Virus record (IMG/VR): IMGVR_UViG_3300010885_071966
Location: 1 to 36,942 of that record
DNA length: 36,942 bases
Direction: 5' to 3' (one strand)
Source of the DNA: a virus
The position numbers and the translations under genes are program-made. The notes below the pieces were generated by a model, which ran no database searches, was not told the origin of the DNA, and worked only from the letters and a program-made list of their open reading frames with translations. This document shows positions 11,215 through 21,091 of this stretch, piece after piece (position 1 is the stretch's first letter; the number at the start of each line of letters is the position of its first letter).

Positions 11215-14200
11215 ATGTCCGAACAAGTTTTTAGGTCCCCTAATTTTTATGAACGTGAAATGGACCTTTCTACGCCTATTACAGGAGGGCCGATTGGAAC
11301 TCCTGCCGGCGTCGTTGGACCTACTCAAAAAGGTCCTGCGTTTATTCCTATCACGGTCGCTAGTTTTGGAGAATTCGTTTCTACATTCGGAGATTTAGAT
11401 CCAAAATATTTTGGTCCTTATGCTGTCAATGAGTTTTTAAAAAATCGAGCTTCTTTAACATATTTAAGAGTTCTTGGTGGTGGTGCCAATTCTTCGTTAA
11501 CCGATTTTGATAACACGTTAACAAATGGCACAGTAAGAAATGCAGGTTTCTCTCTTCCTGGCGTTGTTGCACAAGGCGATGCCCGTCATACTCAAGTCGT
11601 TCAATTCCTTGCAGCACAACATACACTTTCTGCGAATGAAGCCTATGGCATGCCAATGTTTAGCGATAACGATACATTCCCTGGTGTTACTGCAGGTAGC
11701 AATGTTAATTTAATTCGTGCAGCAGTGATGGTGCCAAACACAGCTCGTATCTTTGTATTGGACGGTGACGAATCTGCTCCTGCAGCCGCAGCGGTTGGTA
11801 GCGTCAATGACCAAGCACAAGCCAAGTCTATTAATGGTAAGTCTAGATTTAAGATTCTAATTTCTTCGTCTTTAGGCTCTACATTTTCAAATGATGAAGG
11901 CAAACCAGGAATCAGACTTTTAACTGCATCTTTTGATCCGACAGCAGATGATTATTACGCAAAAGTTCTTAATACTGATCCTGATAAGTTTTACTTAAAT
12001 CAACATTATTTAGCTGCAGACTTTACGGTCGACGCGCAAATAGCTGACGTTGCAGTTAATAACTATGTAGCGATGCTTTCAGGCTCTGCCGATACCAATA
12101 ATTCTTCTGGCGATCCTAGCTTAACCTATCGTGAAGCCTTTGGTGCATTTAATACTCGTTACAAGTCTCCACAGACTTCGATATTTATCTCGCAACCATT
12201 CGGTAAGACGGAATATGACCTTTTCAAATTTGAGTCTCTAGACGATGGTGAATTCGCAAACAAGCTATATAAGATTTCAATCGCAAATATCAAAGCATCT
12301 ATAGACGCGACTAACAAATATGGCACATTTAGCGTTCAAATTAGAAGCTGGAATGATAGCGATATTACGCCTATTATACTCGAGCAATTCTCAAACTGCT
12401 CATTAGATCCTGATTCAAGTAATTATATTGCAAAACTTATTGGAGATCGCAAGGTGTCTTTTCACTTTGATGCTCTTGACCCACTCGAAAGACGCTTAAT
12501 AGCATCGGGTAAGTATTCGAATAAGTCGAAGTACATAAGAGTCATCATGACTGACACGGTTGATAAAAAACTAGTACCAGAAACCGCATTACCGTTCGGT
12601 TTTCATGGACATTCGCTAATAAAGACAAATACGAATAATAACGCATTTGCAGCGCTTACCCAAGGAACTGCTAGATTAGGTGGCGCAGGCCTTGATGCTG
12701 CTCACTTCCTTTCTGGGTCAGTTATACCACCAACTCCATATCGTTATAAGGTCACCCGTGGAGAGATTTCTACGACAGGAACAAAAGCGGGTACGCCAGG
12801 TTCTAAAGAGGTGACGCTTTCTTCTCTATACTGGGGTGTTAAGTTTGAACGTAACTCATTGACTCTTACTAATGAAGTTTTAAATTCGAATATAATATCG
12901 GAAAAAAATAATCTTCTTAATTCTTTAACTAACTTTATGGGAATTGAGAAACTTGGAGTTTTACACACAGGTTCTAGCGTAGATTCATTCAACAATAATA
13001 AGTTTACATTAGCGAAGGTTGCGCTAGGAAATACATCTTTAATTGATGTTACAGGCTCTGCAGGAGCCCATATGAAAGAAGCAGTCTATATTAGGAATGC
13101 AGTTCCTGACACTAATGATTATACTGTTAGTGATGGTGTTGTCTCGGGTCGCGTTACATTAGCAACGCTTCTTGCAAAGTCTTCAGCCGGTGGCTTTAAT
13201 AAGTTCTCACAATTCGCCAAGTTTACTACTTTTATGTACGGCGGGTTTGATGGTCTCAATTATCTTGATCGCGATGCTCGCCGATTAAATGATAAGTCGA
13301 TATCTTTCGATGCTGATTCTCTTTCGACAGGAGGCGCAGCTTTAAGCTATAGCGCTGCTGGTTTCAGTTCTACAGTTAGCGGAACGGGTAAAGACAATAA
13401 CGGCGTCGCTTCATATAACACGGCGGTCGATATTATGACTGACCCATACTCAGTCGGAATCAATATTCTTGCCACACCAGGTGTTCGTGAACCTTATATC
13501 AATGATCTTACTTCTAAGAAAATCAAAGATTATGGCTTAGCTATTCACGTAATGGATATACCTTCTTATAACGATGATGGGTATCGTCTATATGACGATT
13601 CGACAGCTAAACCTAGCGTTCAAAAAACCATTACATCGTTAGACGCTCGTTCAATTGATAACAACTACGTGTCGACTTACTTCCCTGATGTTTTTATTGA
13701 CGATTCTACTAACTCTCAAAGAATTAGCGTCCCAGCGTCTGTTGCAGCACTCGGAGCGTTAGGGTTTAACGATCGAGTATCTTATCCATGGTTCGCACCT
13801 GCTGGTTTTAATAGAGCTGCGCTTGACTTCGTTAAGAATGTATCGGTTAGATTAAACGTTTCAGACAGAGACGCTCTTTATGATTCGCGTATTAATCCGA
13901 TTGCGACCTTCCCGCGGCTTGGATTCGTAATCTTCGGTCAAAAGACTTTGCAAATTAAGAAATCTGCACTCGATCGTGTTAATGTTCGCCGCTTACTTCT
14001 CGAAGTGAAAAGAATCATTATTGGTATCGCAAATCGTCTCGTGTTCGAACAGAATACTCCAATAGTTAGAAATCGTTTCGTGTCAGATTCAGTTTTTCAA
14101 CTTAGTTTAATTCAAACACAAGCAGGTCTTGAAGGCTTTCAGGTTGTTATGAACGAGACAAATAATACACAAGAAGATATTGATTTAAGTCGTCTTAACG

Positions 14201-14286
14201 GACGAATTGTCATCATTCCAACGAGATCGATAGAATACATCGCACTCGACTTTATCATAACGAACGCCGGCGTCCAGTTCGTTTGA
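11215..14286 (+). CDS. Tail sheath protein, copy 1 (T4 gp18 family)
   Basis: A 1023-residue protein with a strong ribosome site, AAGGAG (11202-11207), seven bases before the ATG. The N-terminus (residues about 20-85: TPAGVVGPTQKGPAF, FGPYAVNEFL, LTYLRVLGG) and C-terminus (from about 905: FGQKTLQ, SALDRVNVRRLL, then GLEGFQVVMNE and a final beta hairpin) are the conserved core that forms the helical contractile lattice. The roughly 700-residue middle is a surface insertion, much larger than in T4 gp18 (659 residues in all). A paralogue follows directly. Role: the sheath contracts around the tube during injection. Confidence 0.95.
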   Translation: MSEQVFRSPNFYEREMDLSTPITGGPIGTPAGVVGPTQKGPAFIPITVASFGEFVSTFGDLDPKYFGPYAVNEFLKNRASLTYLRVLGGGANSSLTDFDNTLTNGTVRNAGFSLPGVVAQGDARHTQVVQFLAAQHTLSANEAYGMPMFSDNDTFPGVTAGSNVNLIRAAVMVPNTARIFVLDGDESAPAAAAVGSVNDQAQAKSINGKSRFKILISSSLGSTFSNDEGKPGIRLLTASFDPTADDYYAKVLNTDPDKFYLNQHYLAADFTVDAQIADVAVNNYVAMLSGSADTNNSSGDPSLTYREAFGAFNTRYKSPQTSIFISQPFGKTEYDLFKFESLDDGEFANKLYKISIANIKASIDATNKYGTFSVQIRSWNDSDITPIILEQFSNCSLDPDSSNYIAKLIGDRKVSFHFDALDPLERRLIASGKYSNKSKYIRVIMTDTVDKKLVPETALPFGFHGHSLIKTNTNNNAFAALTQGTARLGGAGLDAAHFLSGSVIPPTPYRYKVTRGEISTTGTKAGTPGSKEVTLSSLYWGVKFERNSLTLTNEVLNSNIISEKNNLLNSLTNFMGIEKLGVLHTGSSVDSFNNNKFTLAKVALGNTSLIDVTGSAGAHMKEAVYIRNAVPDTNDYTVSDGVVSGRVTLATLLAKSSAGGFNKFSQFAKFTTFMYGGFDGLNYLDRDARRLNDKSISFDADSLSTGGAALSYSAAGFSSTVSGTGKDNNGVASYNTAVDIMTDPYSVGINILATPGVREPYINDLTSKKIKDYGLAIHVMDIPSYNDDGYRLYDDSTAKPSVQKTITSLDARSIDNNYVSTYFPDVFIDDSTNSQRISVPASVAALGALGFNDRVSYPWFAPAGFNRAALDFVKNVSVRLNVSDRDALYDSRINPIATFPRLGFVIFGQKTLQIKKSALDRVNVRRLLLEVKRIIIGIANRLVFEQNTPIVRNRFVSDSVFQLSLIQTQAGLEGFQVVMNETNNTQEDIDLSRLNGRIVIIPTRSIEYIALDFIITNAGVQFV

Positions 14287-14340: not shown

Positions 14341-17300
14341 ATGTCACAACTAAAACTAGGCGCCGCAGGCGTAACAGTAAACGAAATAGATGTTTCAGGT
14401 CCACTTACCCAAGCGCCGGTTGGCATTCCAGCTGGAATCATAGGCACCGCAAAGAAAGGTCCTGCTTTCGTTCCGGTCATTGTCGGTACACTTTCTGACT
14501 TTCAAGCAAAGTTTGGAGCTGTTGATAGCAAACATTTCGGTCCTATCGCAGTTTTAGAGTGGTTAAGAAATGCTAGGTCAGTTACGTATTTACGCGTCCT
14601 CGGCGTCGGTGATGGATTAGAGAGACAAGGCGCTTCTCAATCCTATCCTGGCGCTGTGACCAATTCAGGTTTCGTCGTTGGCGAGCAACAACCCAGTGGT
14701 ACAGTTGGTAAGTTAGATAAAAACATCTATGCGAATGACAATGGTGCGCTTGGAAGAACGTACTTCATTGGTTGTTATATGTCTGAATCTGTTGGTTCCA
14801 CTTATCTTAGTGACGCAGGACTTCAAACCGTTGGTAGCAATATTGCGGCGCCAATTGTCCGCGGAATTTTAATGGCAGCATCAGGCGTTTTGTTACGTCT
14901 CTCGTCTTCTCTTACAGGTGTTGGTTCATCTGCTGCACCATCTTCTACTCAAATTGGTTCGTTAAGTGAGAACCCAAAGGGTACAGTCTTCGGTTCTGTT
15001 ACGTTAATGGATGGTACAATTGAAAAACAAGAGTTCGTTCTTCTTTTGAACGGTCACAAAGGTGATGATGCAAATTATCCTAATTTCTTGACTGCATCGT
15101 TTGATCCTACATCAAATAATTATTTCGCAAATGTCCTAAACAAAGACCCGCTCAAACTGGAAGAGACAGGACACTATCTATACAATCATTGGGATATTCA
15201 TTCTGCAGTCGCAAGTTTAACAGGTGCAGGCATTCTTTCTTCATCGCACGGTGCCGACGCCGGCGGCGCAGCTTATTATGGTAAGACAGGCATTGAGACG
15301 TCAGCATTTCTTGTTACTTCATCATTAGGTCGTAACGTATCATCTACCACTGTACCAAATTATGAAAATTTTGAAGATAGATTTAGATCTGCAAAATCTC
15401 CTTGGATTGTTTCTCAAAAATTCGGTGGCAAACCTGTTAATCTCTTTAAGTTCCACGCTATCGATGCTGGATCAAACGTTTCTAATCTCTATAAGATCTC
15501 TATCGAAAACATCACACCTTCTAACGATACCGTCAATCGCCATGGTAGCTTTATGGTTAAGATCAGAAAGTGGAGTGATAGAGATTCTGCGCAGGCCCTT
15601 GTTGCTAGTAATGAAAGCTTTGTTTGCGATTTAAACCCAGCCTCTTCTAGATATATCGCAAAGGTTATTGGTGACTTTAATTCTTATTATGACTTTGACC
15701 GTGATGTCGAAGAACAAAAGATCGTAGTCGAAGGAAATTACCCAAATCGTTCTAATCACGTTAGAGTTGAAATCGCACAAGATGTTGCAAGCGGATTCGT
15801 CGACGCGACTGCTTTACCCATGGGATATAGGGGCATCGCCCACCTTGTGACTTCTGGTTCCGCAGTATTCCCACAACTTCCTGTCGTGACGCAAGATAAA
15901 ACAGGACCAACAGGCGGCTCACTTGATAGAAGCGTATTGCGCAAAATGACTGTACCTCCATTGCCATTCCGCAAAAAAATTACTGATGGTACTATAGGTA
16001 GCGCGATTGAATTGGCAAATGTCGATTTTTATTGGGGCGCGCAATTCGAGCAGATTGAACTTGCTGCTAAGCCGAATGCTTCAGTTATGGTGAATAAGTC
16101 ACTTGAAGCTTTTGTTAAGTATCTTCCTGACTTCGCAACCGTGGCAAAGCCCGTTGTGGTTGGTGATAACACTGATGCCGCTGATACACCCGAGAATGGA
16201 ATCATAGATGCGGATAGATTCTGCAACAATTTATTCTCTCTTGAACATGTTCAGGTTGTCACAGGCTCGTCCTCACGAGCAAATTCTCTCGAATGGAAAC
16301 AAGCTGTTTATGTTCGCAAAGGATCTATCGCGGCCAACGAAGCCAACAAAACCCGCGCGCTGCAAGTTTCAGATTTAAATGAGACTGCAAATAGAAGATA
16401 CGCTAAATTTACAATGATTGTGCAAGGTGGCTTTGACGGCATCAATATTTTCGACATTGATGAGTCTAAATTAACAAATAATGCCGTGTCATCAGACATG
16501 GTTTTTGGAAATGATCGTCTTCTTAATGACGGTCCAACCGTCAAGGCATATGCAAAAGCCGTTGACATCATGAAGAACACAACGAATATTGATATCCAGC
16601 TTCTTGCGATTCCTGGAATTCGTCATCCAATCATTAGCGATTATGCTACCATCGCTGTCGAAGAACGATTTGACGCACTTTATATTATGGACGTTGAGCA
16701 ATACGTCGAAGATGGCGTTGATGCAGAATTTGAAGTTAGATCAGATGAACAGGTCGTCTCTGTATCACAAACTTTAAGTTCCTTCCGTGATAGAGCTGTT
16801 GATTCTTCTTTTGCAGCTGCGTATTTCCCAGATGTTCTCTATGCAGCCCCGGATGGTAATAACGTATTCGTACCGCCATCTGTTCTTGTCCTTGGCGCGC
16901 TAGCTTTAAATGATGCAATAGGACACCCATGGTTTGCCCCAGCTGGTTTCACTAGAGGTGCATTACCTCAACAAGCTCTTGAAGGTCGGGTTAAATTGAA
17001 AGAAGAGGATCTTGATTCTCTTTACAATGATCGGCTTAATCCGCTTGTTGCATTCGTAGGCGCACCTAAGTCTGGAACAAATCCTGCTTCAGGAGTCGTC
17101 ATTTGGGGACAAAAAACTTTGCAAGTTGCATCTTCTGCGCTTGATAGAGTCAATGTTCGCCGTCTTCTCATCGAGATTAGACGACAGGTTCGTGAGATTG
17201 CTCAAACAATTCTCTTTGAACCAAATCGTGAAGCTACGCTTGCTAGATTCTCTGCAGCAGTTACACCACGTCTACAAAGAATTCAAGCACTCGCCGGTCT

Positions 17301-17457
17301 CGAACGATTCCGTGTTATTATCGATTCTTCAACAACAACACAAACAGACGTCGAAAATAATACTGTCCGCGGTAAAATATTCGTTCAACCTACAAAGAGT
17401 ATCGAGTTTGTCAGCCTCGACTTCGTTGTAGCTAATAATACACAGCAAGTTCAGTAG
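14341..17457 (+). CDS. Tail sheath protein, copy 2 (T4 gp18 family)
   Basis: A 1038-residue paralogue of the preceding gene, 54 bases downstream, with GGAG eight bases before the ATG. It shares the N-terminal core (GIPAGIIGTAKKGPAF, FGPIAVLEWL, VTYLRVLG), a middle block (NLYKISIENI, then RYIAKVIGD) and the C-terminal core (WGQKTLQ, SALDRVNVRRLL). Similarity is strongest at the two ends; surface regions differ. Either both subunits enter the sheath, perhaps in different rings, or one serves a special zone such as the baseplate-proximal ring or collar. It looks intact, with no frameshift. By eye it is richer in G+C than copy 1. Confidence 0.95.
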   Translation: MSQLKLGAAGVTVNEIDVSGPLTQAPVGIPAGIIGTAKKGPAFVPVIVGTLSDFQAKFGAVDSKHFGPIAVLEWLRNARSVTYLRVLGVGDGLERQGASQSYPGAVTNSGFVVGEQQPSGTVGKLDKNIYANDNGALGRTYFIGCYMSESVGSTYLSDAGLQTVGSNIAAPIVRGILMAASGVLLRLSSSLTGVGSSAAPSSTQIGSLSENPKGTVFGSVTLMDGTIEKQEFVLLLNGHKGDDANYPNFLTASFDPTSNNYFANVLNKDPLKLEETGHYLYNHWDIHSAVASLTGAGILSSSHGADAGGAAYYGKTGIETSAFLVTSSLGRNVSSTTVPNYENFEDRFRSAKSPWIVSQKFGGKPVNLFKFHAIDAGSNVSNLYKISIENITPSNDTVNRHGSFMVKIRKWSDRDSAQALVASNESFVCDLNPASSRYIAKVIGDFNSYYDFDRDVEEQKIVVEGNYPNRSNHVRVEIAQDVASGFVDATALPMGYRGIAHLVTSGSAVFPQLPVVTQDKTGPTGGSLDRSVLRKMTVPPLPFRKKITDGTIGSAIELANVDFYWGAQFEQIELAAKPNASVMVNKSLEAFVKYLPDFATVAKPVVVGDNTDAADTPENGIIDADRFCNNLFSLEHVQVVTGSSSRANSLEWKQAVYVRKGSIAANEANKTRALQVSDLNETANRRYAKFTMIVQGGFDGINIFDIDESKLTNNAVSSDMVFGNDRLLNDGPTVKAYAKAVDIMKNTTNIDIQLLAIPGIRHPIISDYATIAVEERFDALYIMDVEQYVEDGVDAEFEVRSDEQVVSVSQTLSSFRDRAVDSSFAAAYFPDVLYAAPDGNNVFVPPSVLVLGALALNDAIGHPWFAPAGFTRGALPQQALEGRVKLKEEDLDSLYNDRLNPLVAFVGAPKSGTNPASGVVIWGQKTLQVASSALDRVNVRRLLIEIRRQVREIAQTILFEPNREATLARFSAAVTPRLQRIQALAGLERFRVIIDSSTTTQTDVENNTVRGKIFVQPTKSIEFVSLDFVVANNTQQVQ

Positions 17458-17578: not shown

Positions 17579-18070
17579 ATGGCCGCAGAGACATTAGACG
17601 TATCATCAATGATTCCCAATAAGTTCGAGCCGAAACGCAAGAACCGATGGGTACTTATGGTTGAAGGCATTGACGCATACATCATCAAGACGACATCTCG
17701 TCCTACGATTACAACTGAAGAAGTTGAGGTTCCTTTTATCAATAGCCGTCGCTACCTCGCAGGTAAGACGTCTTTTGGTACAATCGCCGTTACGCTCCAT
17801 GATCCAATAGCTCCTTCAGGCGCACAACAGGTTATGGAATGGGTACGAACTCACTTCGAGTCAGTTTCAGGAAGATCAGGCTATGCCGACTTCTACAAAC
17901 GCGACATTCAACTTAAAATGTTAGACCCAGTCGGTACCGTGGTTGAGCTCTGGGATATAAAGGGCGCATTTATTACTGAAGCAAACTTTGGCGAGGTTAC
18001 CTACGAAGACGGCGGTCCAATGGAAATCTCAATGACACTCCGTTTCGATAATTGCGTGTTGCAGTTTTAG
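17579..18070 (+). CDS. Tail tube protein (T4 gp19 family)
   Basis: A 163-residue protein, the same length as T4 gp19. AGGAG lies nine bases before the ATG. Features typical of the family are the early NRWVLMVEGIDAYIIKTTSRP, strand pairs around VEVPFINSRRY, the central ITVTLHD-like segment (TIAVTLHDPI), and the C-terminal strands ending EISMTLRFDNCVLQF. Subunits stack as hexameric rings to form the channel for DNA, inside the sheath encoded just upstream. Sheath followed by tube is the usual order. The next reading frames are mobile or accessory DNA rather than tail genes. Confidence 0.93.
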   Translation: MAAETLDVSSMIPNKFEPKRKNRWVLMVEGIDAYIIKTTSRPTITTEEVEVPFINSRRYLAGKTSFGTIAVTLHDPIAPSGAQQVMEWVRTHFESVSGRSGYADFYKRDIQLKMLDPVGTVVELWDIKGAFITEANFGEVTYEDGGPMEISMTLRFDNCVLQF

Positions 18071-18107: not shown

Positions 18108-18139
18108 TACCTCTGTGGCATTAAGCTACGGAGGTTTTT

Positions 18140-19048
18140 ATGTTTAAATGTCCTGAATGCGATTTTCAAATTAAAAGCATAAATTCACTCAGAATTCATG
18201 CTTCAAAAAAGCATGGTATTTCAAGCGAAGACTTGTACAATCAGGTTGTACTAAAAGGAATTAAACCAACCTGTGAATGTGGGTGCGGCTGTGATACAAA
18301 ATTTAATGGATTGAGAAATGGATATTCCAGGTTTGCATGGGGCCATGCTTCGAAAGTAAATAATAACTGGGGTCATAACAAAGAAGCTTTTGAGAAAAGT
18401 CTCACGACCAGAAGAAGAATGTGGGAAAATGGCGAAATTCAAGGATGGTGTAAAGGATTAACGAAGGACGATCCAAGAATAGCATCAATCATCGAAAAGA
18501 TGAATACGCCTGAAAGATCTGAGAAAATATCTAAATCTTTAACAGGAAAATTAAAATCAGAATCTCATAAACAAAAAATCTCAGAGCACATGAAGTCGTA
18601 CTGGGGTGAAGAAATTAATAGAGAACGTCAAAGCTTAGAACAGGCTGAAAGAATAAAAAATGGGTTGTTGACTAAATGCACTCGAGTTCATGGGTATTTT
18701 AGCAATCACAAAAAGTCAACTCGCCCGAACGTCTACTATAGATCGTTATTTGAACTTAACGCCATTCTTCATTTGGAATCAAGTGAAAATGTTATTTCAT
18801 ATACTTTTGAGCCTTACAACATTGAATATTCTTTTGACGGAAAAATTAGACATTATATCATCGATTGCTTGATAGAGTATGAAAATGGAACAAAGCTCAT
18901 CGTAGAATTTAAACCAAGCTGCCACGTTATCCACGAAAAGAATGTTGCAAAATTTCAATCAGCTGAAAGATTTGCAAATGAAAATGGATTTAAATTTGAA
19001 GTGTGGACAGAAAAAACTCATAATTTTTTATCGAGAAAAAACATTTAA
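18140..19048 (+). CDS. Free-standing homing endonuclease (zinc finger, NUMOD3, PD-(D/E)xK)
   Basis: A 302-residue protein with GGAGG five bases before the ATG. Domains in order: a C2H2-like finger (C4, C7, H20, H25); a second Cys-rich segment, CECGCGC at 45-51 followed by FAWGH (65-69), common in phage homing enzymes; NUMOD3-like repeats about 125-155 (SEKISKSLTGK, HKQKISEHMKSYW); and a C-terminal nuclease resembling TnsA/Vsr-type PD-(D/E)xK folds (YYRSLFE with E205, D242, VEFKP with E256 and K258). Such enzymes cut unoccupied alleles and spread by repair. It interrupts the tail cassette between the tube and gp26-like genes, a typical HEG location. All catalytic candidates are present, so it may be active. 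Confidence 0.85.
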   Translation: MFKCPECDFQIKSINSLRIHASKKHGISSEDLYNQVVLKGIKPTCECGCGCDTKFNGLRNGYSRFAWGHASKVNNNWGHNKEAFEKSLTTRRRMWENGEIQGWCKGLTKDDPRIASIIEKMNTPERSEKISKSLTGKLKSESHKQKISEHMKSYWGEEINRERQSLEQAERIKNGLLTKCTRVHGYFSNHKKSTRPNVYYRSLFELNAILHLESSENVISYTFEPYNIEYSFDGKIRHYIIDCLIEYENGTKLIVEFKPSCHVIHEKNVAKFQSAERFANENGFKFEVWTEKTHNFLSRKNI

Positions 19049-19149
19049 TTTCCGAGTGGGTAACCAACTATCATATTGAGAAGAATGTTTCTGGAGTTGT
19101 TTTGTGTGAAGGGTGTCATAATTTTGAGCATAGGAGTGTTAGTATATAG
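19024..19149 (+). pseudogene. HNH-like nuclease C-terminal remnant, copy 1
   Basis: A start-less frame, shifted relative to the endonuclease and overlapping its last 25 bases, encodes NYHIEKNVSGVVLCEGCHNF followed by EHR before a stop at 19147. The LCxxCHxxxH ending is typical of HNH nucleases ('LCxxCHxxxH'). Copy 2 follows the mlaC gene. Many differences between the copies are synonymous, implying both descend from a real coding sequence. Confidence 0.55.
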
Positions 19150-20057
19150 ATCATGTACATCGTCATTCGACAATCGAATACACAAGTCAAGAGGTCTATG
19201 GTATATTTAATATCATGGACCTTTCGACATTTAAGTGCTCTGAGTTTGCGCAGTATAAGACAAACAAGTTAGATTCTCTAAGAATTCGTTGTCAACAAAA
19301 ACACAAATTATCTACCCAGCTTCTTTACGCTAGATTGGTCGTCGTGCTCCTAAGTCTATGCTTCGTTGGTATCGTCCAGGCAGGGCCGGCGACCGATCTC
19401 GTAAAATTTAAACAGACACAACTTTTTAAGGTCATGGCGGCGCCAAAGAGCAACGCTCAACAAGCCAAGTTAAATGAGCTTTTCGACGAGCTGATTTCCT
19501 ACGACCAGTTCGCAGCCTACTCGCTCGGTGAGCAATGGCTTGAACGAAGCGCTACTGAGAAGAAGCACTTTTCGAATCTGTTGACAGAACTAGTCCGAGC
19601 AAATTACCGTAAGAACATTAAGGCGCTGACCGACTTTGATGTCACCTATGTCAAGGAAGACGAGTCCGCCGGTGGGACGATGGTTACGATGATCGCCAAG
19701 CACCGGACCAAGACCACCGAGCCTAAGCTTGAGGTGGAATTTCGGCTAGAGACAGTTGCCGGCAAGCTCAAGGTTGTCGATATCATCACCGAGAAGGCAA
19801 GCATGGTGAAGACGTTCCGCTCGCAGTTCTTGAAGGTCTTAAACAAAAGCGGCTTTGATGCGCTCACGGCCAAAATGCAAAAGAAGCTCGATAAGCTGAA
19901 TAAGAAGAAGAACTGAAACTTCCTCTTATTCGGAGTTATAAGAATCAGCTAGGTCATTCTAGAAAAAACTTTTAATTGTTGCATGGATTATCAATTATCG
20001 TATTGAGAAGAATATTTTTGACGTTGTTCTGTGCATTGGATGTCACAATATAGAACA
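19034..20057 (+). repeat. Direct-repeat pair bracketing the mlaC chimaera
   Basis: The arms are 19034-19130 and 19961-20057, each 97 bases, aligning without gaps at about 74% identity by hand count (25 mismatches). Both start AGAAAAAAC and share TATTGAGAAGAAT. They enclose the mlaC gene and its zinc-finger leader, as expected if the segment arose by recombination between two related homing-gene copies. Confidence 0.65.
19215..19916 (+). CDS. mlaC: MlaC/Ttg2D-like phospholipid transport protein fused to a zinc-finger leader
   Basis: A 233-residue protein. From about residue 57 it matches MlaC: LISYDQFAAYSLGEQW, ATEKKHFSNLLTELVRANY, the strand block LEVEFRLET..GKLKVVDIITE, and MVKTFRSQFLKVLNKSGFDAL near the end. 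MlaC is a periplasmic carrier of phospholipids between outer-membrane MlaA and the MlaFEDB transporter. A hydrophobic core (41-53) and VQA/GP predict signal cleavage after residue 56. Residues 5-40 align with the zinc finger of the upstream endonuclease (FKC.E, SLRI, KH..S...LY), but the second Cys and first His are lost. ATG 19215 is the only ATG before the hydrophobic core. G+C is about 33% in the leader and 48-55% beyond base 19320, against 28% in a sampled endonuclease line. Recent acquisition from a Gram-negative bacterium is inferred. No Shine-Dalgarno sequence is seen. Confidence 0.8.
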   Translation: MDLSTFKCSEFAQYKTNKLDSLRIRCQQKHKLSTQLLYARLVVVLLSLCFVGIVQAGPATDLVKFKQTQLFKVMAAPKSNAQQAKLNELFDELISYDQFAAYSLGEQWLERSATEKKHFSNLLTELVRANYRKNIKALTDFDVTYVKEDESAGGTMVTMIAKHRTKTTEPKLEVEFRLETVAGKLKVVDIITEKASMVKTFRSQFLKVLNKSGFDALTAKMQKKLDKLNKKKN

Positions 20058-20070
20058 CGCTATAGATTAA
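19963..20070 (+). pseudogene. HNH-like nuclease C-terminal remnant, copy 2
   Basis: A start-less frame encodes KKLLIVAWIINYRIEKN and continues VVLCIGCHNIEH to a stop at 20068-20070. It pairs residue for residue with the remnant at 19024-19149 (W..NY.IEKN...VVLC.GCHN.EH). The remaining bases to 20209 hold no gene that I can support; AACTTT/AAAGTT at 20081-20096 is only a weak AT hairpin. Confidence 0.55.
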
Positions 20071-20209: not shown

Positions 20210-21091
20210 ATGAGTACAGAAGATCGCGAATCTCGTAACGCAGTGTTTTCAAATGTCACTAGTACCCCATCGAATGTTGATCATCGAACGCCTATGCAGG
20301 CGGCAACCGATAAAGTAAAGGCGGAATTTGGATTAGATATTCCGCTTGAGACTGTACCTTTGCCTTCATCAGGTAAGGTTTATGCTCAAGGAACTTCACT
20401 TTTCAATGCATCGACGGTCGATGTCAGGTCTATGACAGCTCGTGAAGAAGATATCTTAACTTCCCGAGCGCTTCTTAAGAAAGGCACAGTTATTACTGAG
20501 TTGATTAAGTCGTGTCTTATTGATCGTTCAATTAATCCAAACGATTTATTAGGCGGCGATCGTAACGCTTTAATGGTTGCAATTCGTATTACTGGTTATG
20601 GGCCTGAATACAAGGCTGAAATAGAATGTAACGAGTGTACGGCAAAGACACATCACGAGTTTAATTTAGGCGAACTACCAATTCGTCGATTGTCAATAGA
20701 TCCAGTAACACCAGGTTGTAATCTTTTCGAGTTTACACTTCCTCATTGTAGAAAGAATGTAAAGTTTCGTTTCTTAACCGGAAAAGACGAAGAAGAAATT
20801 ACGGCGATGGCTGAAAGACAAAAGAAGTTAGGACTCTCGACTGAGACTAACGTAACAACTAATTTGATGCACACGATTGTATCGATCGACGGTATCGAAG
20901 ATAGAGTGAAGATTTCGAACTTTATTAAGCATATGCCTGCTCGTGATTCGTTGGCTATTCGTAATTTCATTAAAGAAAATGAACCTGGCGTTATCATGAA
21001 GCAAGAAACATCTTGTTCGGCGTGCGGTCACTCAGAGGAGGTATCGATGCCGCTTGGCGTCAACTTTCTTTGGCCTCAGTCCGGAAGATAA
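20210..21091 (+). CDS. Baseplate hub assembly protein, T4 gp26-like
   Basis: A 293-residue protein with AAGGA seven bases before the ATG. Residues 50-100 (VPLPSSGKVYAQG, VDVRSMTAREEDILTS, ITELIKSCLID) match the T4 baseplate gp26-type family (LPS.G..Y, then a strand and T..EE..L). Two CxxC pairs, C140/C143 (CNEC) and C269/C272 (CSAC), could together bind one zinc ion. The ending NFLWPQSGR resembles the F-W-P ending of relatives. T4 gp26 has 208 residues and helps assemble the baseplate hub; this one is larger. As in T4, it lies upstream of the tape measure. Its last 38 bases overlap the next gene. Confidence 0.75.
   Translation: MSTEDRESRNAVFSNVTSTPSNVDHRTPMQAATDKVKAEFGLDIPLETVPLPSSGKVYAQGTSLFNASTVDVRSMTAREEDILTSRALLKKGTVITELIKSCLIDRSINPNDLLGGDRNALMVAIRITGYGPEYKAEIECNECTAKTHHEFNLGELPIRRLSIDPVTPGCNLFEFTLPHCRKNVKFRFLTGKDEEEITAMAERQKKLGLSTETNVTTNLMHTIVSIDGIEDRVKISNFIKHMPARDSLAIRNFIKENEPGVIMKQETSCSACGHSEEVSMPLGVNFLWPQSGR
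21036..21041 (+). promoter_or_regulatory. Internal ribosome site AGGAGG within the gp26-like gene
   Basis: A full-strength Shine-Dalgarno sequence near the end of the gp26-like gene, 12 bases before the TTG that opens the overlapping 95-residue frame. It supports a separate start there rather than a frameshift fusion. Confidence 0.55.

Follow-up and report, generated by a model that had tools for sequence, protein, structure and literature searches.

A homing-endonuclease leader joined in frame to a bacterial mlaC-like gene in a phage tail operon

Introduction

Phage morons and auxiliary metabolic genes are bacterial genes that sit among structural genes and bring a promoter-like element of their own. 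Such entry of host genes into phages is known, but the joining itself can seldom be seen. Homing endonuclease (HEN) genes form chimeras as well, and Gp88 of phage ICP1 combines a HEN-family nuclease with the DNA-binding domain of PLE RepA (PMC8263062). T4 I-TevI and SegB and Aeh1 MobE are under hairpin control, with late promoters placed so that the late mRNA avoids the folding (PMC2988022). Host-gene capture, HEN chimeras, and hairpin-controlled HEN genes are all known kinds of arrangement, and the locus described here is one example. It belongs to the contractile-tail module of the 36,942-base virus record IMGVR_UViG_3300010885_071966, the whole of which was analyzed (the window).

The locus contains a chimeric open reading frame (ORF) that resembles each of these systems in part. 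Like morons and auxiliary metabolic genes, it is a bacterial gene among structural genes with a promoter-like element, but it borrows the start codon and the RNA switch of a homing gene, and no recurrence was seen in viral_contigs or in GenBank phage records. Like ICP1 Gp88, it is a phage-borne homing-endonuclease gene fused to a foreign domain; Gp88, however, keeps the nuclease and swaps the DNA-binding domain, whereas the chimera has lost the nuclease and gained a bacterial lipid-binding protein. As in I-TevI, I-TevII, I-TevIII, segB, and Aeh1 mobE (PMC2988022), the read-through mRNA folds into a stable hairpin that masks its translation start. In that group a promoter lets a local mRNA escape the hairpin, and the counterpart here is a putative −10-like element in the hairpin loop. 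The differences are that here the promoter is a predicted one, the start codon lies within the stem, a locally started mRNA would have almost no leader, and an MlaC-like protein is encoded behind the hairpin. With MlaC, Ttg2D, and HpnM (PF05494) the chimera shares the domain, the fold, the signal core, and the residues that are invariant in bacteria; unlike them, it has 38 codons of endonuclease leader where bacterial codons 1 to 6 would be, stands alone in the tail operon of a phage, and falls below the MlaC and HpnM equivalog cut-offs.

Results

The tail module consists of two sheath-like genes, a tail tube gene, and a T4-type baseplate gene. The sheath-like genes are adjacent and large (11215-14286, 1023 aa; 14341-17457, 1038 aa). 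The tube gene (17579-18070, plus strand; PHROG 4542, E = 1.6e-32) and the baseplate gene (20210-21091, plus strand; PF12322 T4_baseplate, E = 1.4e-14) form the upstream and downstream borders of an interval that holds, in this order, an endonuclease gene (HEN A), copy 1 of a repeat, the ORF at 19215-19916, and copy 2 of the repeat. The gap between tube and baseplate genes is as small as 125 bp in some related phages, and in other related viral contigs it is occupied by HEN A, by a second endonuclease gene (HEN B), or by reverse-strand genes. Across a large group of uncultured myophages, this interval is a hotspot at which free-standing homing endonucleases settle. An ORF on the reverse strand, about 131 aa long and marked by motifs such as PAYQISAMPFVTSSN, recurs in the hotspot of many relatives (L007 7440-7844, L013 8064-8459, L022 1957-2352, and L027 4724-5119, all on the minus strand). 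A PADLOC run gave no match.

The ORF at 19215-19916 (plus strand, 233 aa, ATG start) joins a HEN B leader to an MlaC-like protein in frame. Its leader corresponds to HEN B codons 1 to 38 (19215-19328, plus strand) and is preceded by the 5′ flank of a second HEN B copy (19157-19214, plus strand), whose first 20 nt (19157-19176) are intergenic DNA from behind the tube gene. These 20 nt are identical at 20/20 positions to the DNA right after the tube gene in L018, positions 19173-19212 are 92.5% identical to L005 and L142, and positions 19173-19306 are 74 to 84% identical in DNA to the 5′ end of HEN B. Intact HEN B is absent from the 36,942-nt window; in L005 (reference copy L005:6541-7341), L007, L010, L015, and others it lies right behind the tube gene and encodes about 266 aa. 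The protein starts with MDLSTF, carries a zinc finger with the ligands C8, C11, H25, and H30 as well as a CGCG segment, and has an HNH-like region at its C terminus; this last part is assigned by motif, the Pfam matches of HEN B being to zinc fingers only.

A profile of 21 HEN B N termini recovers the ORF with an E value of 8.5e-18 and HEN A with 9.3e-12, whereas the best of 1000 shuffled leaders reaches 0.07. Together with the HEN B DNA matches, these values identify HEN B, and not HEN A, as the parent of the leader. The sequence-only reading that prompted this analysis had likened the leader to the zinc finger of the adjacent endonuclease; the leader is indeed similar to phage zinc-finger endonucleases far beyond chance, but its closest relative is the sister family HEN B. 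HEN A was ruled out as the parent, since it is HEN B that shares the MDLSTF start and matches the DNA of 19173-19306. The loss of metal ligands suspected in the same reading is real: the residues C8, C11, H25, and H30, invariant in HEN B, are C8, F11, R25, and H30 in the ORF. Altogether, of 18 positions conserved in HEN B, four are lost from the leader (P9, C11, H25, and K28), three of which never vary across the 21 HEN B genes, and no HEN B gene has more than two deviations of its own (n = 21). The chimera contains neither the four-ligand finger nor an in-frame HNH part of a zinc-finger HNH endonuclease.

The remainder of the ORF is bacterial. When 84,980 genomes of bacteria and archaea were scanned, the relatives returned were Myxococcota metagenome-assembled genomes (MAGs) only. 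The best match, in a Polyangiaceae MAG (L082:4582-5172), is 86% identical in DNA over 19332-19922 (plus strand) without indels and is bounded exactly at 19332 and 19922, with nothing outside. In the tree the phage gene is sister to the L082 gene (100/98 support), with a second Polyangiaceae MAG next to the pair, and a homologue is present in 162/184 genomes of the donor's order. The captured segment runs from codon 7 of the mlaC-like gene to the stop codon plus 6 nt. At the left join the donor start codon and six codons are absent, and HEN B codons 1 to 38 plus one junction codon replace bacterial codons 1 to 6, so that the bacterial start MLKTILRLAAV corresponds to ...LLYARLVVV in the phage ORF. 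At the right join the bacterial stop codon and 6 nt of 3′ flank are followed by HEN B sequence from 19923 on. This sequence, remnant 2 (19923-20070, plus strand), is the 3′ end of the recipient HEN B: 19929-20033 and 19958-20057 align with the HEN B 3′ end, and it contains one copy of the direct repeat D1. It is dead, with in-frame stops at 19939-19941 and 19960-19962. The swap thus removed about 530 bp of HEN B interior (codons ~40 to 216) and brought in a bacterial gene segment of 591 bp. The two joins share a few bases of homology at most, from which we infer illegitimate recombination.

Both joins bear out the earlier proposal that a bacterial mlaC-like gene took the place of a homing-endonuclease interior in frame with the endonuclease start. 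The only ATG ahead of the signal core is indeed at 19215 (the in-frame TTG at 19335 and GTG at 19344 lack a visible Shine-Dalgarno sequence), the G+C content steps from 0.34-0.38 to 0.51 where that proposal placed it, and the closest bacterial relatives lack the leader. We are highly confident in the capture of an mlaC-like gene into HEN B, together with the inheritance of the hairpin described below. The Polyangiaceae donor is probably a present or recent host; the tail tube of the phage group was found in none of the 184 genomes of the donor's order, which lend no support to this host assignment.

Because the locus is known from a single metagenomic contig, a co-occurring Polyangiaceae gene might have been misjoined into the phage contig during assembly. 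This would take two chance joins within one gene, correctly ordered and oriented and with the left one in frame, at points that share only a few bases. Moreover, the AT-ward drift of the captured gene and the ligand losses in the leader, at positions invariant in HEN B, indicate time spent together after the joining. We regard an assembly chimera as extremely unlikely.

HEN A, upstream, records a separate and older domain replacement. The gene is intact (18140-19048, plus strand; PF08722, E = 4e-13; PHROG 218/15427), and its counterparts in related phages are 85 to 97% identical. Its N terminus is a zinc-finger/CGCG array as in HNH-type homing genes, but its C terminus is TnsA-like PD-(D/E)XK, which argues that HEN A displaced an HNH-type gene earlier. 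An 11-bp RNA hairpin covers the HEN A Shine-Dalgarno sequence (18109-18135, plus strand; −22.9 kcal/mol, z = −5.7), with a promoter-like TTTACC-16-TATAAT immediately 5′ of it. Behind HEN A lies remnant 1 (19031-19148, plus strand), an HNH endonuclease 3′ end that is 72% identical in protein sequence to the HEN B tail and contains the other copy of D1. The two remnants form a 100-nt direct repeat (19031-19130 and 19958-20057, 74% identical), and intact HEN B genes have 3′ ends that match both, in line with the earlier suggestion of related endonuclease remnants on both sides of the ORF. The proximal one, however, does not stem from the mlaC event: about a dozen mlaC-free relatives also carry remnant 1 downstream of HEN A, and it hence belongs to the older event. 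In the closest relative, L087 (94% DNA identity), HEN A and remnant 1 are present and HEN B and mlaC are absent.

The start codon of the chimera (19215-19217) is held in a conserved 15-bp hairpin (19190-19224, plus strand; −23.2 kcal/mol, z = −7.5). In an alignment of 22 HEN B-type hairpins, 286/286 cells are paired and six pairs show compensatory change; none of 500 shuffles reaches any of these measures, and slid partners pair at 37 to 46%. The chimera retains all pairs of the conserved HEN B stem, and its hairpin is inherited from HEN B. It is thus a conserved RNA hairpin that hides the start, as in the I-TevI/mobE group. An extended −10-like sequence, TGGTATATT, runs into the loop (19199-19207, plus strand), and a −35-like TACACA lies some 17 nt before it. 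In the loop, bases 19203-19205 and 19207 are conserved though they lie outside the conserved stem, giving TATAnT with TGG before it. This −10-like loop is conserved, but promoter-like sites in the hairpin region are not enriched over shuffles. By its sequence, this element could possibly be a promoter that yields a near-leaderless mRNA starting at about the AUG. Rfam gave no match at the locus. A simple terminator reading of the chimera hairpin is less favored since no long T run follows it; only the HEN A hairpin was classed as terminator-like. By eye, inverted repeats with AT-rich loops also stand right before the HEN starts of many distant relatives (L142 to L221; for example, L183, L184, L203, and L214), which suggests hairpin control across the whole HEN family.

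The identification of the ORF as MlaC, made initially from the letters alone, holds at the family level. Pfam PF05494 matches residues 68-223 with an E value of 3.5e-27 (95.6 bits against a gathering cut-off of 26), the top PDB matches of the predicted fold are MlaC/Ttg2D chains (E = 1.4e-9, TMt up to 0.74; the model is of medium confidence, with pLDDT 69.9 from a five-sequence alignment), and a sequence profile matches the same chains. The NCBIfam equivalogs were missed (MlaC NF011697, 27.0 bits against 195; HpnM TIGR03481, 55.9 against 160.1), and the proper name is therefore MlaC-like, with orthology unproven. The window has no mlaFEDB neighbors, the ORF being a lone gene among tail genes, and inspection of the 6-kb contig of the donor L082 by eye gave no obvious mla neighbors either. 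A putative signal sequence in the ORF comprises a long basic n-region, the hydrophobic core LVVVLLSLCFVGIV, and a VQA site. To judge from the core and the VQA site, export is plausible, though it would have to proceed with an n-region of 40 residues.

How the captured gene has changed bears on whether it does anything. At polarized sites the phage branch carries 22 synonymous and 21 nonsynonymous changes, and the L082 branch carries 12 and 3 (Fisher P = 0.07); in the tree, amino acid change since the split amounts to 0.15 on the phage branch and 0 on the L082 branch. Changes from GC to AT outnumber the reverse by 37 to 5 on the phage branch, and GC3 is 66% in the captured gene, 78% in L082, and 29 to 46% in neighboring phage genes. 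The excess and the intermediate GC3 fit residence in an AT-rich genome, but an AT-ward drift is also seen on the L082 branch (9 to 2), and hence some of the bias may be older than the capture.

The near 1:1 ratio on the phage branch, and the fact that nearly all amino acid change falls there, are what one would expect if the capture were real but the ORF were functionless passenger DNA, open only through youth. A neutral simulation is likewise not rejected (P[N ≤ 21] = 0.17; P[no stop] = 0.15), and the chimera is in no other phage in viral_contigs. On the other hand, there are no stops or indels in 194 codons, compared with two stops in the ~48 codons of remnant 2 (which possibly arose before the capture). 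All 33 of the 33 columns that are invariant in nine bacterial homologues are unchanged in the chimera, for which the chance with 21 random hits is about 0.02, although part of this branch represents bacterial time. The hydrophobic core and the VQA site are intact, and the hairpin is fully paired. The decay of the leader and the kept MlaC residues fit a zinc finger that is unconstrained and an MlaC part that is partly constrained. Between these observations we consider passenger DNA evenly balanced with its negation; the chance that the chimeric protein is expressed and exported falls slightly short of even, and its usefulness to the phage is doubtful.

The sequence-only reading also saw in the locus a route by which homing genes could carry host cargo into tail operons. 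This part is not supported: the recipient endonuclease is dead, and among the 105 ORFs with this N terminus in the fetched loci, 66 continue as HNH, 19 as PD-(D/E)XK, and 18 as partial or other nuclease-like sequences, the sole non-nuclease partner being that of the chimera (this ORF was counted twice, in the window and at the copy locus L001). The idea of a cargo route thus depends on a single case. A single sequence, an exact DNA pattern, and a 10-sequence profile found no second phage with MlaC or the chimera in viral_contigs, GenBank phage records gave no match to the window protein, PHROGs gave no clear match for the MlaC-like ORF, and the open-licence literature yielded no paper that joins MlaC with a bacteriophage and a phage genome. 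As the chimera is known from one contig and no second phage carries it, it may be transient. With E. coli MlaC as the query for a phage MlaC, the GenBank matches were only bacterial-looking contigs under phage names (Salmonella, Acinetobacter) and were rejected; mlaC-bearing "phage" records that look misfiled are CAKLQH020000003.1, CAKLQF020000004.1, and AGRM01000002.1.

A stronger version of the cargo idea would have endonuclease cutting and repair systematically draw host genes into this locus. Replacements at the hotspot are repeated, HEN A too sits on an HNH remnant, at nearly the same 3′ point, and related zinc-finger N termini are fused to HNH, TnsA-like, and DUF559/MTES_1575-type C termini. 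However, all other carriers of the N terminus end in nucleases or are partial, cargo is found only in the chimera, and a chimera without a nuclease cannot home on its own. Such a systematic process is very unlikely in our view.

Discussion

We propose the following history of the locus. HEN A would have displaced an older HNH endonuclease in this lineage and left the HNH 3′ tail behind it. A second, HNH-type copy (HEN B) would have lain behind HEN A together with some post-tube DNA. Illegitimate recombination would have exchanged the HEN B interior for the lone Polyangiaceae mlaC-like gene, fusing 38 HEN B codons to bacterial codon 7 and, with the bacterial stop included, rendering the HEN B 3′ end non-coding. 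Translation of the chimera would start from the HEN B start codon inside the 15-bp hairpin. A read-through mRNA of the tail operon would fold and hide the AUG, and an mRNA from the promoter-like element in the loop would start almost at the AUG and avoid the hairpin, following the logic of I-TevI, SegB, and mobE. The product would be an MlaC-fold lipid-binding protein, cleaved at VQA, that reaches the periplasm in late infection.

If the protein is made, its likeliest effect, speculatively, is the binding of periplasmic phospholipid late in infection. The change in outer-membrane lipid asymmetry put forward in the sequence-only reading is likewise speculative. A wider reading, in which a decayed homing locus serves as a switchable slot for a host-derived, exported lipid carrier that shifts envelope lipids late in infection, is unlikely; were it true, homing hotspots in tail operons would be landing pads for host genes.

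From the capture itself, Polyangiaceae (Myxococcota) emerge as a suggested host lineage of these large phages, a common and uncultured group. With the covarying hairpin at the start codon of HEN B, control of the type described for T4 I-TevI and mobE extends to homing genes of a large environmental family. For the entry of host genes into phages, the locus offers a case in which nearly base-level resolution is available for the donor, the recipient, and the two joins, and in which a start codon and an RNA switch, already in place, have visibly passed to the captured gene.
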